Assembly: GCA_020440825.1 (NCBI GenBank)
Contig: JAGRNJ010000003.1
Span: forward strand, 1-64,000
DNA: 64,000 bases
Source: Leptospiraceae bacterium
GTDB lineage: Bacteria; Spirochaetota; Leptospiria; Turneriellales; Turneriellaceae
Direction of reading: 5' to 3'
The notes below the pieces were generated by a model. It was not told where the DNA came from and ran no database searches. It worked only from the letters and a program-made list of their open reading frames with translations. A program made the position numbers and the translations under genes. Of this stretch, positions 1 to 6,568 are shown piece by piece (positions within the stretch are counted from its first letter, which is position 1; the number at the start of each line of letters is the position of its first letter).

Positions 1-218
1 CCACGATATGCATGTGATGAACCAACAAATAGAACATCAACTGTATTAAAATCCTTTACTTCTTCTAAACGAGTATATTGGAAATCACCTGTAGGGGGTT
101 TATGTAAAATAATAGTGCTATCAAAGAATTTGTATTTACCAAATACAACAATCATAAAACAATAAAAGATAGTAAAAATAATTGAAAAGACAAATATTTT
201 TATAATAAATTTTTTCAT
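1..218 (-). CDS. SGNH/AlgX-type accessory protein of an MBOAT system, N-terminal part only
   Basis: The open frame runs off the left edge of the window, so only about 72 residues are visible. It begins at an ATG with a strong Shine-Dalgarno (GGAGGG on the minus strand, 229-234) and encodes a basic start (MKKFIIK) followed by one hydrophobic segment (about residues 4-25), a signal anchor. The last visible residues, VDVLFVGSSHAYRG, match the GSSH nucleophile block seen in SGNH-like partners of MBOAT acyltransferases. It lies 33 bp downstream of the MBOAT gene on the same strand, so the two are probably co-transcribed and together O-acylate a cell-surface glycan. The family call rests on this short block plus context. 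The function of the missing part cannot be judged. Confidence 0.6.
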   Translation of the reverse strand, partial: MKKFIIKIFVFSIIFTIFYCFMIVVFGKYKFFDSTIILHKPPTGDFQYTRLEEVKDFNTVDVLFVGSSHAYR

Positions 219-251
219 AGTTATTATTCCCTCCTAATTTGAGAATGTCTT

Positions 252-1703
252 TTAGAATTGAAAATAGATAAAGGGGGAACCTTCAATATTTTGAAATAAA
301 ATTATAATAATAAATAGAATTGCATAGAATGCTTGTCGAAAAATTGTATGCTTGTTAGCAAGTAATTTTTCTATAGCATATTTTCCATGCCTACCTTGCC
401 ATTCAATTAATACAAATATCACAACAAGGACAATAGTTGATAAGGATTCTGCCCTGCCAGGGAATCTTGGAATTTCAAAAAGTGTAAATGAAAAAATTCG
501 GTCTATATAACTAAATGCATGCGTGAGACTTTCTGCCCTAAAAAATATCCAGGCAAATACAGTTAGGCTAAAAGTAGTTAGTATTGCCAGAATTTCTTTG
601 AAGCCGGGTAAGAATTTATTTTGAGCGACTACATCTAAATTGCTTCTGTTCTTGTTTGATAAAAGTAAAGGAAGGAAATAGATTGCGTTTAGTGCACCCC
701 AGAAAATAAAAGTCCAGTTAGCTCCATGCCAAAAGCCACTTACAACAAAAATTATAAAAGTGTTTCTCACTTTCATTAGAGTACTACCGCGACTGCCACC
801 TAAAGGGATATATAAATAATCTCTGAACCAGGTTGATAAGGATATATGCCATCGTCTCCAAAATTCTGCAATATCCCTTGAAAAATATGGAAAATTAAAA
901 TTTTGCATTAAATCAAAACCAAATAATTTAGATGTACCTATCGCAATATCTGAATACCCGGAAAAATCACCATAGATTTGAAAAGTGAAGAATAATGCAC
1001 CGAGCACCAAGGTGCTTCCAGAATAATCAGATGAATTATTAAAAATTAAATTTGCATATTGAGCACAATTATCGGCAATTACAATTTTCTTAAATAATCC
1101 CCATAGAATTTGTCTCATGCCATCGACTGCGATTGAGTAATCGAAAGTTCTTTTTTCATAAAATTGTGGCAATAAATGTGTAGCTCGTTCAATTGGTCCT
1201 GCTACCAATTGAGGGAAAAAACTAACAAAAGCTGCAAAAACAATAAAGTCTGTAGTTGGTTCAAGTTTTCTTCTATAAACATCTATTGTATAACTCAAAG
1301 TTTGAAATGTGTAAAAACTTATACCAACTGGTAGAATGATTTTTAAAGAGTTAGCTTTTATATCTGACCCAAAAAATGTGAAAGTTGTAATAAAATTATC
1401 TAAAAAGAAATTATAGTATTTAAAAAATCCTAGAAATCCTAAATTAACTAAAATACTTGTCCATAATAGAAACTTTCGCTTGGTATCGCTATCTTCCTTC
1501 CATAGCAAACGGCCAACAGTATAATCCACGATAGTACTGAAAGCTATTAATGAAAGGAACCTCCAGTCCCACCATCCATAAAATACATAGCTTGCTACTA
1601 CAACTAACAAGTTTTGTAGTTTAAGATTTTTATTTGTAACAAACCAATAGAATAAAAATACTATTGGTAAAAATATTGCAAAATCAATTGAATTAAATAA
1701 CAA
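252..1703 (-). CDS. MBOAT family O-acyltransferase (AlgI/DltB-like)
   Basis: A 483-residue polytopic membrane protein with about ten hydrophobic segments, the usual size for the family. It carries the MBOAT landmarks: WRRWHISLS (His286), the RDYLYIPLGGSR block (about 294-305) and the SGFWHGANW block with the presumed catalytic His326. Family members transfer acyl groups from a cytoplasmic donor to extracytoplasmic polysaccharide or teichoic acid, usually with an SGNH partner, and one follows directly downstream. Start: no ATG fits. A TTG at 1703 has GGAAGG a few bases upstream, so TTG is the likely start. The gene is clearly richer in A/T than the DNA from about 7.3 kb onward and lies in an accessory region, which suggests acquisition by transfer. 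The glycan acylated cannot be read from the sequence. Confidence 0.9.
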   Translation of the reverse strand: MLFNSIDFAIFLPIVFLFYWFVTNKNLKLQNLLVVVASYVFYGWWDWRFLSLIAFSTIVDYTVGRLLWKEDSDTKRKFLLWTSILVNLGFLGFFKYYNFFLDNFITTFTFFGSDIKANSLKIILPVGISFYTFQTLSYTIDVYRRKLEPTTDFIVFAAFVSFFPQLVAGPIERATHLLPQFYEKRTFDYSIAVDGMRQILWGLFKKIVIADNCAQYANLIFNNSSDYSGSTLVLGALFFTFQIYGDFSGYSDIAIGTSKLFGFDLMQNFNFPYFSRDIAEFWRRWHISLSTWFRDYLYIPLGGSRGSTLMKVRNTFIIFVVSGFWHGANWTFIFWGALNAIYFLPLLLSNKNRSNLDVVAQNKFLPGFKEILAILTTFSLTVFAWIFFRAESLTHAFSYIDRIFSFTLFEIPRFPGRAESLSTIVLVVIFVLIEWQGRHGKYAIEKLLANKHTIFRQAFYAILFIIIILFQNIEGSPFIYFQF

Positions 1704-2306
1704 GTACTACCTTCCGTTCTCTTCTTTTCTTCGCCCGCCACGGACGGCGGGCGTCTTGGGGGCGGGATTAAGAAATTATTTTATCAAACATATCATATTT
1801 TCAACCAAAAAATTTGGCGCGATTTTTCGTCTAACTCTTATTCTCCGTATTGCGTTAAAGAGGAGGTTCGTCAAGACAAATAAATACTCGAGATTCAGAA
1901 AAGTTCGTTTTTGCGGTGTAATGCGGGTGTTATGTGATGTAAATCATTGCGGGTAATGGTTTTCATTGGGGTGTTGTGCGTAATTTCGTTTAATATACTC
2001 AGGCGTATTCATTAAAAAATCTATGATCCTTAGTGAGTAAGTAACTGCAGCTAAAAAACAAAACCTGACCTGGTTTTTTAAGTTTTTTACCAATCTATTG
2101 GCTAATTCGTCCAGATCTACATAATGGCTAAATTCTCTCATTTTTTTTCCAAGCTTCGCCCGACGCTAAGCTTCTACCTCTTCCCGGCGTGAGCGTTGTC
2201 TAAATTGACTTTGAACGCATTATTACTGCGGTTTAGTTCTGTTCTCGCTGGTCGTTGATTTGAACAGTTTTGACTGTTTTTGTGCGAGGCTTACCAATAT
2301 TAACGG
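1704..2306. other. Gene-poor stretch with a GC-rich hairpin
   Basis: About 600 bp with no convincing gene except a doubtful 65-codon frame. It holds a perfect 8-bp inverted repeat, CGCCCGCC (1732-1739) and GGCGGGCG (1746-1753), about 30 bp upstream of the MBOAT start. There is no T-run on either side, so it need not be a terminator. Further GC-rich patches at about 2152-2195 alternate with A/T-rich DNA. Nothing else is identifiable. Confidence 0.5.
1944..2141 (-). CDS. Doubtful small ORF, 65 aa
   Basis: An ATG-started frame with a weak GGAA purine patch upstream. The product (MREFSHYVDLDELANRLV...) would be helical with a hydrophobic middle. I recognise no family. It lies on the same strand as the neighbouring 148-aa membrane protein and the MBOAT gene, and could be a short gene captured in the accessory region or chance coding. 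Nothing in composition or motif decides between these. Confidence 0.25.
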   Translation of the reverse strand: MREFSHYVDLDELANRLVKNLKNQVRFCFLAAVTYSLRIIDFLMNTPEYIKRNYAQHPNENHYPQ

Positions 2307-2753
2307 CTATTTTTTTGCCAGATGAGAGGTTAAAAATGCAAAAGCAATTGACGCGGGAATGGTAATCCACCCCAGAAAAAGCAGACTTATGCCGGTGTAA
2401 ATAAGCCCCAGATAGGTCATCTGCCAAACCGGTATCGGTGGCTCTGCAAGCGAACTCGTGCATCCCCCCGTCGTCACATAACAGATATTGAGCCCGATAT
2501 TCAGAAGCAGCCAGCACAGATAATGAGAAATACTGCCAGTCAAGAAACCGGTCAGAATAAGTTTGCCAGGGCGGATTACCTCTGCCACGCCAATAATTCT
2601 CTGCCACAGAATATAAGCGCAAAGAAATGTCGCCGCCGGCGCAGCAATGATAAACATCCAGTAGCCATTTGCAATGGCACTTACCGTGATATAGACCCCG
2701 GTGGCCAGTGCAGCCAGAGAGTTAAAGATACTGAATTTTAATGAATTACTCAT
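2307..2753 (-). CDS. Small integral membrane protein, 148 aa, unknown function
   Basis: Four hydrophobic segments are visible (about residues 10-30, 32-52, 64-88 and 112-142). The third is followed by a Cys-containing loop (CYVTTGGCTSSL). An AAAGGA element lies about 10 nt before the ATG. No catalytic motif or named family is recognised. It is transcribed away from the recombinase gene, with the large inverted repeat (2875-3094) in between, so it could be cargo of a mobile or recombinase-associated locus. The Cys pair, if extracytoplasmic, could form a disulfide. The gene is probably real, given uninterrupted hydrophobic periodicity and an ATG with a ribosome-binding site. A competing 129-codon frame on the same strand lacks these features. 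Confidence 0.6.
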   Translation of the reverse strand: MSNSLKFSIFNSLAALATGVYITVSAIANGYWMFIIAAPAATFLCAYILWQRIIGVAEVIRPGKLILTGFLTGSISHYLCWLLLNIGLNICYVTTGGCTSSLAEPPIPVWQMTYLGLIYTGISLLFLGWITIPASIAFAFLTSHLAKK

Positions 2754-2874
2754 GTAAGAGGTCCTTTGAATCTAGAAATAAGATCATCAAGCTGCCGTTT
2801 AGTAAATACAGGAAAAGAATGTCAACGGCGTCAAGCTCAATAAAGAAGCGGCAACAATCAGCGACCGATTAAAG

Positions 2875-3094
2875 GAGCCTGGGCGGGAACCTAAGCATTT
2901 TAAAAAGAGGTCAAAATATTTCATTTCAAATTTACGTTTTCAAAACATTATGAAAAAAACACAAGAATTTCGAGGCAAAATCTATGATTTTGCGTCGCAG
3001 CGAGACGAATTTTATTAAAATTCGTAGCAAATTTTTGTGTTTTAGTGAATTTGAAATGAAATATTTTGACTACCCCCGGTTCCCGCCCAGGCTC
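2875..3094. repeat. 220-bp nested inverted repeat (cruciform-forming) beside a recombinase gene
   Basis: The outer arms are a perfect 17-bp inverted repeat: GAGCCTGGGCGGGAACC at 2875-2891 and its complement at 3078-3094. A second perfect 23-bp pair lies inside (2910-2932 with 3048-3070), then a 15-bp pair with one mismatch (2956-2970 with 3029-3043). In the centre are two local hairpins: 2975-2982 with 2986-2993 (8 bp, loop TAT), and 3005-3014 with 3016-3025 (10 bp, 1-nt spacer). One strand would fold into a long imperfect stem with a branched tip. It ends about 75 bp before the ATG of the tyrosine recombinase at 3171. It could be a recombination site, a MITE-like element or a structured RNA. 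No open frame or terminator tail explains it. Confidence 0.85.
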
Positions 3095-3170
3095 AAAGGC
3101 TGCTTGAAATTCGTTTTAGGAGAAGCGAAATGTACTTTACAAATAGTGGTATTTGTTTAGTGTGGTGGGT

Positions 3171-4418
3171 ATGAGTGCGGAGGGTTATAACTCGAAGCCG
3201 GGGCGCATTGAAACACAAATTGACGCTCGGGCAATTGAAGACCACTATAACCTGAGCCTGAATTATATTTCAAATCAAAGAATTGAAGAATTTTTAATTC
3301 TACATCATGCCAACCGTCCCGATCATCCCGGTTATCAGAAACTGAAGTCGGCTTTCCGTCGCAATAATTTATACCGTCGGGTATTTGATAAGATTGAAGA
3401 AGATTTTGCCAGGTTTGGCGCCAGTCTGGTGACAAATTCACAAAATGTCTCATCTCAATTTGAAAAAGATCTGTCTGTTGGTAATGAAGATTTCAGCGAA
3501 AAAAGCCATCCGCCTGCCCCCAACATGATACAGAATGCTAAATATTCGGCAGAGAATCTCAAAATACCACGGGTACTTTTACCCACGGTGAGTGAGTCGA
3601 TTCACAATATGGTTCGCAATCTTCGCATTCGAAATTATTCGCGCGCGACGATCAAAAGCTATGAATCTTATGTTCGACAGTTTGCGTTTTATTTGCAGAG
3701 CGCCAATAAAGTTCTCTCGCCAGATATTGCAATTGGTGATATTATCGATTATCTTGATGAGCTTCTCGAACGGGAGGCTTCTTCTACTGTGATGCGCGGG
3801 TTTCGGGCGGCACTGCGGGCTTATTTTCAAAGTGCAGAGGTCGAGCGCGACATACCATTTTTCAAAGGTATGAAAAAAGAAAAATTTCTGCCGACCGTGC
3901 TCACTAAAAACGAAATTCTGCGCATCTTATCAACAATTACGAACCCGAAACACTGGTGTGCAATTTCCATTATGTATTCATCGGGCTTACGGGTTTCTGA
4001 AGCAGCAAAAATAAAGGTCGGCGATGTTGATCTGCCACAGAATGTTTTACGGGTTCGGCAAGGCAAAGGTAAAAAAGACCGGGTGACAATGCTTTCAGAT
4101 AAACAGACCGAAATTTTGCAGACCTTGATTGCCGGGCGTAAAATGGACCAGTTTGTGTTTGAAAGCGGCCAGCGCAAAGGGCGGCCTCTATCGGTACGCA
4201 GTATTCAAAAAGTCTTCGAGCGGGCTTTGAAAGCCAGCGGGGTTCAGAAATTTGCCACCTGTCACAGTTTAAGGCACTCTTTTGCCACCCATTTGTTAGA
4301 GAGTGGTACAGATATTCGCTTTATACAAAAGCTGTTAGGCCATGCTAATCTAAAGACGACTTCGGTTTACACGAAAGTAAGTCACGAAAAGATCACCCAG
4401 ATACGCTCACCGTTTTGA
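3171..4418 (+). CDS. Tyrosine recombinase (XerC/D-like) with N-terminal extension
   Basis: 415 residues from the ATG (an upstream TTG at 3153 would add six). A core-binding SAM-like domain occupies about 140-235 (RNYSRATIKSYESYVRQF) and the catalytic domain about 240-415. The full catalytic set is visible: Arg274 in SSGLRVSEA, the GKGKKDR Lys hairpin, His365 and Arg368 in HSLRHSFATH, His391 in LLGHANLKTT, and nucleophile Tyr400. The roughly 20-residue insert that marks integron integrases before the HxLRH box is absent, so this is not a classical IntI. The first 135 residues have no counterpart in about 300-residue XerC/D proteins and are of unknown function. A large inverted repeat lies just upstream and toxin-antitoxin genes follow, so it probably belongs to a mobile or plastic locus. 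Chromosome dimer resolution is less likely because of the extension and context. Confidence 0.85.
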   Translation: MSAEGYNSKPGRIETQIDARAIEDHYNLSLNYISNQRIEEFLILHHANRPDHPGYQKLKSAFRRNNLYRRVFDKIEEDFARFGASLVTNSQNVSSQFEKDLSVGNEDFSEKSHPPAPNMIQNAKYSAENLKIPRVLLPTVSESIHNMVRNLRIRNYSRATIKSYESYVRQFAFYLQSANKVLSPDIAIGDIIDYLDELLEREASSTVMRGFRAALRAYFQSAEVERDIPFFKGMKKEKFLPTVLTKNEILRILSTITNPKHWCAISIMYSSGLRVSEAAKIKVGDVDLPQNVLRVRQGKGKKDRVTMLSDKQTEILQTLIAGRKMDQFVFESGQRKGRPLSVRSIQKVFERALKASGVQKFATCHSLRHSFATHLLESGTDIRFIQKLLGHANLKTTSVYTKVSHEKITQIRSPF

Positions 4419-4560
4419 ATGGAAAATGTATGCCCAGACCCGGCCTTTGACTCAATGGCCTTACCGATTAGAGACAGAAAAAAGTCACTATTTCTGAATC
4501 TGGTTCGGATGAGAAAATTAAACTTGAATATACTTGAAACTACAATATTGTCCACTTTAT

Positions 4561-4590
4561 TTGGACGTTTTACCCTACGTCATATATAAT
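4561..4590 (+). promoter_or_regulatory. Putative vapB promoter ending 6 nt before the start codon
   Basis: TTGGAC at 4561-4566, an 18-nt spacer and a perfect TATAAT at 4585-4590. Transcription would begin about 7 nt further on, at the ATG (4597), so the message would be leaderless. The short palindrome GTCC-N9-GGAC (about 4550-4566) overlaps the -35 element and could be an antitoxin operator. Confidence 0.6.
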
Positions 4591-4596
4591 TACAAA

Positions 4597-4827
4597 ATGA
4601 ACCATTTGAACGTATCAGAATTCAAACAAAAATGCCTTGATTTGCTCGACCCGGACAAGTTGGCCATTGAACCTATTTTATTAACCCGGCATAACCGGCC
4701 GGTTGCAATGGTGGTTGAACCAAAAGGGTACTTCAAAGAAAGTAAGCTCCGGGGTTCTGTTACCTATTGTCTCGCTCCCGGGGAAAAACTTGAAAATATT
4801 ACTTTTGCAGAAGAATGGGGTAACTAA
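4597..4827 (+). CDS. Phd/YefM-like antitoxin (VapB role)
   Basis: A 76-residue protein starting MNHLNVSEFKQKCLDLL, the Phd/YefM N-terminal pattern (short strand, then helix). It also has the ILLTRHNRPVAMVV strand pair typical of this DNA-binding fold, followed by a C-terminal tail (about 48-76) likely to wrap the toxin. An in-frame upstream start at 4534 is unlikely, because the promoter and operator-like palindrome lie between it and 4597. No Shine-Dalgarno precedes the ATG. The PIN toxin follows after 11 bp, so the pair forms one operon. The antitoxin should neutralise the toxin and repress the shared promoter. Symbols are withheld because subfamily assignment needs comparison. Confidence 0.8.
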   Translation: MNHLNVSEFKQKCLDLLDPDKLAIEPILLTRHNRPVAMVVEPKGYFKESKLRGSVTYCLAPGEKLENITFAEEWGN

Positions 4828-4838
4828 GAAACATCAAC

Positions 4839-5222
4839 ATGATTTTAGACACGCATATTCTATTATGGCTGGTCAATGGAGACCCTATTCCCCCCAAAAC
4901 AAAAAAAGCAATTCATACTTCTGCCTATCTGGCAATCTCTGCCATTACTGCCTGGGAGATTTTTATGCTTGAAAAACGCGGCAAGGTGAATTTCAATATT
5001 CCATCTGCTGCATGGCTCGGTCAAGCTTTGCGAACACATAATATCGACACTATCCCACTGGGCATTTCAATTTGCCACCGCTCAAACAGACTGGCATGGG
5101 AACACCGCGACCCTGCCGATCGTTTTATCGTTGCGACCGCGATAGAGACCGATTTACCACTGGCTACCTGTGACGACCAGATTATTCAAAGCCGGGTCGT
5201 GCCGGTAGCCGGTTATACTTGA
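4839..5222 (+). CDS. PIN-domain ribonuclease toxin (VapC family)
   Basis: 127 residues beginning MILDTHILLWLVNG with the first PIN aspartate (Asp4). Other acidic positions are Glu40 in ITAWEIFML and the HRDPADRFIVATA block (the conserved Asp pair), then LATCDDQII. This is the type often paired with Phd/YefM-like antitoxins. VapC toxins are Mg-dependent endoribonucleases that cut tRNA or rRNA when freed from the antitoxin. All catalytic acids appear intact, unlike the second PIN toxin of this window at 15735. The gene is translated just after the antitoxin stop, which suggests coupling. The target RNA cannot be predicted. Confidence 0.88.
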   Translation: MILDTHILLWLVNGDPIPPKTKKAIHTSAYLAISAITAWEIFMLEKRGKVNFNIPSAAWLGQALRTHNIDTIPLGISICHRSNRLAWEHRDPADRFIVATAIETDLPLATCDDQIIQSRVVPVAGYT

Positions 5223-5326
5223 GAAAAAGTCTCAGAGTTCACCCCGACTTACAATCTCAAAACAAAATTTCTTTTTAAGCAGAGATTGCGCGATCGCAAA
5301 TAAGTATTTTTCATTACCTCTACCCT

Positions 5327-6568
5327 TTATGATATTTTTTTTCCTGATAAATACACTGCTTCAATAGAACCGGGAAAAGTAAAATCTTCAAACGGAGACC
5401 ACCCGCTTTTGCTTTGAATCATCTCTTTGCGAAAGGTGGTTTCTTTTTTAAGATTCAAGACCGAAAAATTGGCTGCATAACCGGGTTCAATTTTACCGAA
5501 CCCTTTGCCATATTTTTCAGGCAGATACTCATTTACAAATAGCCCCGGCTTGTAAGAGCATACTTCGGCAATTCTTTGCAGCGATACGTTTTTCTCGAGA
5601 ATGAGCCAGGTCACAAACAGAGCATAGGTATCTAATTGAGAAATTCCACTGGTTCCTTTTTGCTTCTCTTCAATTGAGTGCGGGGCATGATCGGTTGCCA
5701 GATAATCGATATTGCCGTTGATTAGTTCTTCTAACAGTATTTTTTTATCTTGCGGCCCTCGTAAAGGCGGGTTCATCTGAAACCAGTGGCGATTTTCATC
5801 TGTCAGCATTGTGGTATCAAACATCAGATGTGTGGGGGTTACCTCGCAGGTTACTTTTACTCCCCGATTTTTTGCAGCTATAATTTTTTTAAGACCGTCA
5901 CCGGTAGAATAATGGCAAAGCTTGCCTTTCAGGTTATATTTCTCAATGAGATTCAAAGCAAATTCTGTAGCTGTAATTTCTGCGACGGCAGGTCGTCTGT
6001 CTTCATGCAGGGGTTTGTCTTTATTTTCTTCGAGCAGAATGGGGTCTTCGCAGTGAAAACTCACATTCTGGCCTGTATAATTTTGAATAACCTGTTCAAG
6101 CTCTTCATTCGTTTTGAAATACAGGTCTCCGACCGAAGGCCCCATGAAAACCTTGTAGGGTACATTTCGTTTCAGGGGGTTGGTGCCGGGGCCAATGCCG
6201 GCATAGAGTGTAATATGCAGGGGAGATTTTAAGGTCAGCTTTTCTTTCTGCTCATAGAGAGTATCGTTTATCGGTGCAATCGGGTTGTTGGGCATATCGG
6301 CTAGGTGGGTTACTCCGCCATTTAAGCCTGCAAGTCCTGCGCTTTTAAAATCTTCTTTATAGGTATGCTTACCCGAGGCATCTTCCCGCGCATGAATATG
6401 TATATCGCCAAACCCGGGAAAAATAACACATTCGGCCGGTGAATACTGTATCTGGCCGGTCATTCCCGGCTGAACTTCGAGTATCAAACCGGTCTGGTCA
6501 TCAAAATAGATGGTTCCTTCAAATTCATTTTCATGGGTAACAATTCTGCCTGCAATGGATGTTTTCAT
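5327..6568 (-). CDS. pyrC: Dihydroorotase
   Basis: 413 residues of the amidohydrolase superfamily. Zinc ligands are visible: DIHIHARED (His57, His59), a Lys in PYKVFMGPS that would be carboxylated, FHCEDP, LCHYSTGD and the metal-binding Asp in ATDHAPHS. These fit dihydroorotase, which closes carbamoyl-aspartate to dihydroorotate in pyrimidine synthesis. The HARED and DHAPH blocks favour dihydroorotase over allantoinase or hydantoinase. A CGGA element precedes the ATG. It stands alone between two toxin-antitoxin modules and has no other pyrimidine genes nearby. A short hairpin (TTGCG-CGAT-CGCAA, about 5286-5300) lies beyond its stop. Confidence 0.85.
   Translation of the reverse strand: MKTSIAGRIVTHENEFEGTIYFDDQTGLILEVQPGMTGQIQYSPAECVIFPGFGDIHIHAREDASGKHTYKEDFKSAGLAGLNGGVTHLADMPNNPIAPINDTLYEQKEKLTLKSPLHITLYAGIGPGTNPLKRNVPYKVFMGPSVGDLYFKTNEELEQVIQNYTGQNVSFHCEDPILLEENKDKPLHEDRRPAVAEITATEFALNLIEKYNLKGKLCHYSTGDGLKKIIAAKNRGVKVTCEVTPTHLMFDTTMLTDENRHWFQMNPPLRGPQDKKILLEELINGNIDYLATDHAPHSIEEKQKGTSGISQLDTYALFVTWLILEKNVSLQRIAEVCSYKPGLFVNEYLPEKYGKGFGKIEPGYAANFSVLNLKKETTFRKEMIQSKSGWSPFEDFTFPGSIEAVYLSGKKIS

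Follow-up and report, generated by a model that had tools for sequence, protein, structure and literature searches.

A nested 220-bp palindrome beside an integron-type tyrosine recombinase in a Leptospiraceae bacterium: a possible MITE-like repeat

The window is a stretch of 64,000 nucleotides (positions 1 to 64,000 of contig JAGRNJ010000003.1) from a Leptospiraceae bacterium. A tyrosine recombinase gene (3171..4418, + strand) and an ORF at 2307-2753 diverge from an intergenic region that holds a non-coding palindrome of 220 bp (2875-3094). The ORF has the orientation of a cassette gene, directed away from the recombinase, and is an orphan with no match in 17 other genomes of its order (E <= 0.001). 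A Phd-like antitoxin, which scores below the Pfam cut-off, and a PIN-domain toxin lie directly downstream of the recombinase (4597-5222), with no attC site. From the right end of the palindrome to the ATG of the recombinase at 3171 there are 76 bp, in line with the distance of about 75 bp given in a first-pass annotation, and a TTG at 3153 is an alternative start. The start codon of the ORF is 121 bp from the palindrome, and the arms face outward to both divergent starts.

A mechanical inverted-repeat search resolves the palindrome into three concentric arm pairs and two central hairpins, at exactly the coordinates first proposed for a nested repeat. The outer left arm GAGCCTGGGCGGGAACC (2875..2891) is complementary at 17/17 positions (100%) to the outer right arm GGTTCCCGCCCAGGCTC (3078..3094), the second left arm GTCAAAATATTTCATTTCAAATTTAC (2910..2935) at 25/26 positions (96%) to the second right arm (3045..3070), and the third left arm (2956..2970) at 14/15 positions (93%) to the third right arm (3029..3043). 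The arm lengths first read were 17, 23 and 15 bp; the first and last stand, and the 23 bp are a subset of the 26-bp arm. Fold and sequence define central hairpin 1 (2975..2993; stems GCAAAATC/GATTTTGC at 2975-2982/2986-2993) and central hairpin 2 (3005..3025; stems ACGAATTTT/AAAATTCGT at 3005-3013/3017-3025). The tetranucleotide AAAG, read directly, flanks the palindrome on the left (2871..2874) and right (3095..3098) and is a possible target-site duplication; none of these features is assigned a strand. As single-stranded DNA the palindrome folds with -69.7 kcal/mol compared with -24.8 ± 3.5 kcal/mol for dinucleotide shuffles (z = -13), and 0/200 shuffles fold as well. It is the strongest nested palindrome, and the sole one at such strength, in a scan of ~1.3 Mb of its own genome, which is about a third of the genome taken in pieces, some of them masked. 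A transcript terminator was rejected: no terminator-like site was found within the palindrome and both neighbouring genes begin, rather than end, at it. The initial view that it has neither a coding nor a terminator role holds. An Rfam match to MIR403 (E = 0.036; 25 bits compared with a gathering score of 70) is a sub-threshold hairpin that we judge to be due to chance.

Profiles, alignments and locus comparisons identify the recombinase as an orthologue of array-linked integron-type integrases without the IntI additional domain. It carries catalytic and SAM-like domains, and its best scores, XerA-like and integron-integrase-like, both fall under curated cut-offs. The I2 additional domain of integron integrases is absent: the KxR-to-RH spacing is 64 aa, compared with alignment-based counts of 105 in IntI4 and 70 in XerD, and the match to the IntI profile is broken into two pieces. 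No IntI match above the curated cut-off occurs in the ten genomes searched, which include its own. Its nearest orthologues in relatives have 45-49% identity. The recombinase is regarded as integron-related because orthologues in related genomes adjoin genuine attC cassette arrays, and the first-pass annotation was right on both the missing insert and the integron affinity. In its own genome the neighbour is an integron-type recombinase without an adjoining array; none was found beside it in window positions 1-5600.

The arrays of relatives were identified with an attC scanner that gives few matches in shuffled sequence. Sites with CGTT context occur in 9/20 relatives' loci, with one additional weaker case, and most are 133-254 bp long. 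A lineage consensus was drawn from 17 attC sites of relatives, to which AAC, GCTNCG, CGTC-type and CGTT elements are common, with CGTT being a selection criterion for those sites and, thus, not independent evidence. Tyrosine recombinases of the clade without I2 lie near attC arrays at nine loci (L046, L048, L052, L053, L058, L060, L062, L063 and L065), and the enzyme at window positions 3171-4418 belongs to this clade. The cassette array of genome G004 (L053:9430-14200) has near-identical repeats 459 bp apart and begins ~165 bp upstream of the integrase ORF. Two attC candidates in the window's own genome were set aside: one site lies on contig C5 (L080:465-3784), a probable contaminant that shares 99.7% identity with G004 over 3.3 kb, and one site with cassette-like genes lies on C38 (L113:42-260), a contig whose membership in the organism is uncertain. 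By published description the I2 helix is exclusive to integron integrases, for which it serves as a filter (PMC9176274), and a further paper sees in it the innovation behind single-strand recombination (PMC7790495). Treponema was the sole spirochete clade known to have integrons as of a 2013 paper (PMC3607928), and searches of the open-access literature gave no title or abstract with a report of integrons in Leptospira or Turneriella. Here, a recombinase clade without this reportedly exclusive domain nevertheless lies beside attC cassette arrays. If these arrays are served by I2-less enzymes, the origin of single-strand attC recombination could be tested on natural enzymes.

The palindrome was first suggested to be a recombination site of its neighbour. 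An unlikely reading of this kind is a folded single-strand (attC-like) site, or a substrate in the attI region, for the integron-type enzyme next to it. The palindrome resembles an integron attC in being a foldable single strand with nested stems and an internal loop, of a length similar to that of most relatives' sites, adjacent to an integron-type recombinase whose orthologues adjoin attC arrays. As in attC, an AAC/GTT close to the inner end of the outer arm precedes an asymmetric internal loop, beyond which comes a second stem. The idea stays alive, at low probability, because of this layout. Unlike attC, however, the palindrome shows neither the R nor the L box consensus: instead of RYYYAAC...GTTRRRY boxes with a CGTT cleavage context it reads GGGAAC/GTTCCC, the base preceding GTT being G on each strand, and its L stem is 26 bp long compared with ~10 bp and lacks the lineage flanks GCTNCG and CGTC/CTTC at its ends. 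An attC scan of window positions 1-5600 gives nothing, even at a low threshold. Two partial copies of the palindrome (on contigs C66 and C147, below) also lie outside cassette arrays, in stretches that have no attC sites and no adjacent integron genes. It is very doubtful that the palindrome serves an I2-less integron-type recombinase as a folded single-strand substrate that is lineage-specific and outside the attC consensus; if it did, the integrase using this recombination site would have the build presumed for the ancestor of integron integrases.

Comparison with relatives also speaks against a site that belongs to the recombinase. The palindrome sequence has no match in 47 other genomes of the class (E <= 1e-5), and the one exact pattern tried in IMG/VR has none there. 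In the 18 relatives whose integrase upstream region was long enough to fold, inverted-repeat arms there reach 13 bp at most, compared with 23 bp in the window by the same measure. Only the G004 upstream region is comparably stable, and its stable region is its attC array. With no lineage attC signature, and with the repeat missing both upstream of orthologues and from the 47 genomes, the recombination-site claim was not borne out. The first-pass annotation had reasoned that it would fail if relatives with the recombinase lacked the repeat and the repeat occurred nowhere else; relatives do lack it, but two partial copies exist in its own genome. The right-arm 12-mer GTTCCCGCCCAG recurs in G017 (L048), ~83 bp upstream of its orthologue and thus at a similar distance as in the window, and the whole-region alignment of the two is not significant (z = 2.4). 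A region shared upstream of orthologues was rejected, with alignments mostly at shuffle level; that of G032 reaches z = 4.8, but it is long, gapped and AT-rich.

Whole-genome searches for copies, made on an assembly that is 88% complete, returned one complete palindrome and two partial, diverged copies. The copy at C66:39535-39651 has 81% identity over 117 bp and resembles the right half (local score 144 compared with 71 for the left half); it keeps the second right arm and has one mismatch in the outer right arm. The copy at C147:15753-15786, near a contig end, resembles the left half (68 compared with 46 for the right). Half-specific spacer and loop sequences are matched as well, those of the right half by C66 and those of the left half by C147. 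The C66 copy consists of one end only, without its complementary half, and the C147 copy runs off its contig. No other convincing match to the outer arm occurs elsewhere in the genome: matches with 3 mismatches are mostly inside coding ORFs and look like chance, and a match at C66:15733 looks coding. In the C66 copy, 40/43 positions of the arm sequences are conserved compared with 57/84 of the remainder (Fisher p = 0.0016). With no pairing half in this copy, the better conservation of its arms suggests that they count as sequence, beyond pairing alone.

Such conservation without pairing would also suit a bidirectional regulatory dyad, in which two inverted binding or promoter-proximal sequences serve the divergent recombinase and ORF 2307-2753. 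This divergent-promoter arrangement, which we consider unlikely, is the main rival to a MITE-like reading. The outward-facing arms and the start codons at 76 and 121 bp fit it, as does the C66 half, which has an RND-efflux-like gene (identified by eye) starting ~100 bp downstream of it in the same orientation. Against it, what the C147 copy faces is the 3' end of a gene, conservation runs through the inner part, beyond a motif, and the spacing between the two conserved blocks varies among copies (7 or 18 nt). Promoter-like matches are near chance (4 compared with 1.7 expected) and the Leptospira-type SOS box TTTGN5CAAA is absent. An ECF-type promoter in the arms was rejected for its inconsistent spacing among copies. 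Quite unlikely, too, is a functionless inverted duplication, by replication template switching, of an intergenic repeat of ~110 bp whose arms would stay similar through quasi-palindrome correction. Such an origin is in keeping with the single half-unit seen in each of C66 and C147, and with the near identity of the arms of the window palindrome (42/43) beside a poor alignment of the loops from its two halves. The halves differ in subtype, however, one C66-like and one C147-like, which means that neither is a simple copy of the other, and the AAAG flanks are not predicted.

The best explanation, which we hold with middling confidence, is that the palindrome may be a small non-autonomous, lineage-specific MITE-like repeat inserted upstream of the recombinase; the initial proposal of a MITE-like, self-complementary element is plausible. 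Two transposon-type ends, each with a 17-bp terminal arm and a conserved 26-bp subterminal block, would have been fused around a short core, and the product would have entered the interval between the orphan ORF and the recombinase gene at an AAAG target of 4 bp. Movement would have been by transposition, the arms would be transposase-recognition sequences, and the position beside the recombinase would then be incidental. The MITE-like reading is favoured because terminal arms and half-specific ends are found singly elsewhere (C66 and C147), because the C66 arms are conserved without their pairing half, as expected of end sequences, because AAAG abuts both ends, and because the element is absent from the 47 class genomes and no such inverted repeat lies upstream of orthologues. 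Terminal inverted repeats, which are expected of MITEs, are present (17 bp perfect, plus the 26-bp arms), and the AAAG match is of 4 bp only, with a chance of ~1 in 256. That only one copy is complete, and that no transposase with such ends turned up in the searches with the outer arm, counts against the MITE-like reading. The 12-mer GTTCCCGCCCAG upstream of the G017 orthologue would also count against insertion if it reflects homology rather than chance, since the right arm would then predate any insertion.

Like MITEs and palindromic intergenic repeats, the element is short, non-coding and self-complementary, with partial copies elsewhere in the genome and AAAG directly repeated at its ends as a possible target-site duplication; it differs from them in having one complete copy and no known parent transposon, and in being lineage-restricted. 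The repeat alone is a modest, new lineage-restricted palindromic element, and its neighbourhood matters more. The same ~1.3 Mb scan of the genome also picked out an internally repetitive palindromic stretch with strong folding at a contig end (L095:6377-6600).
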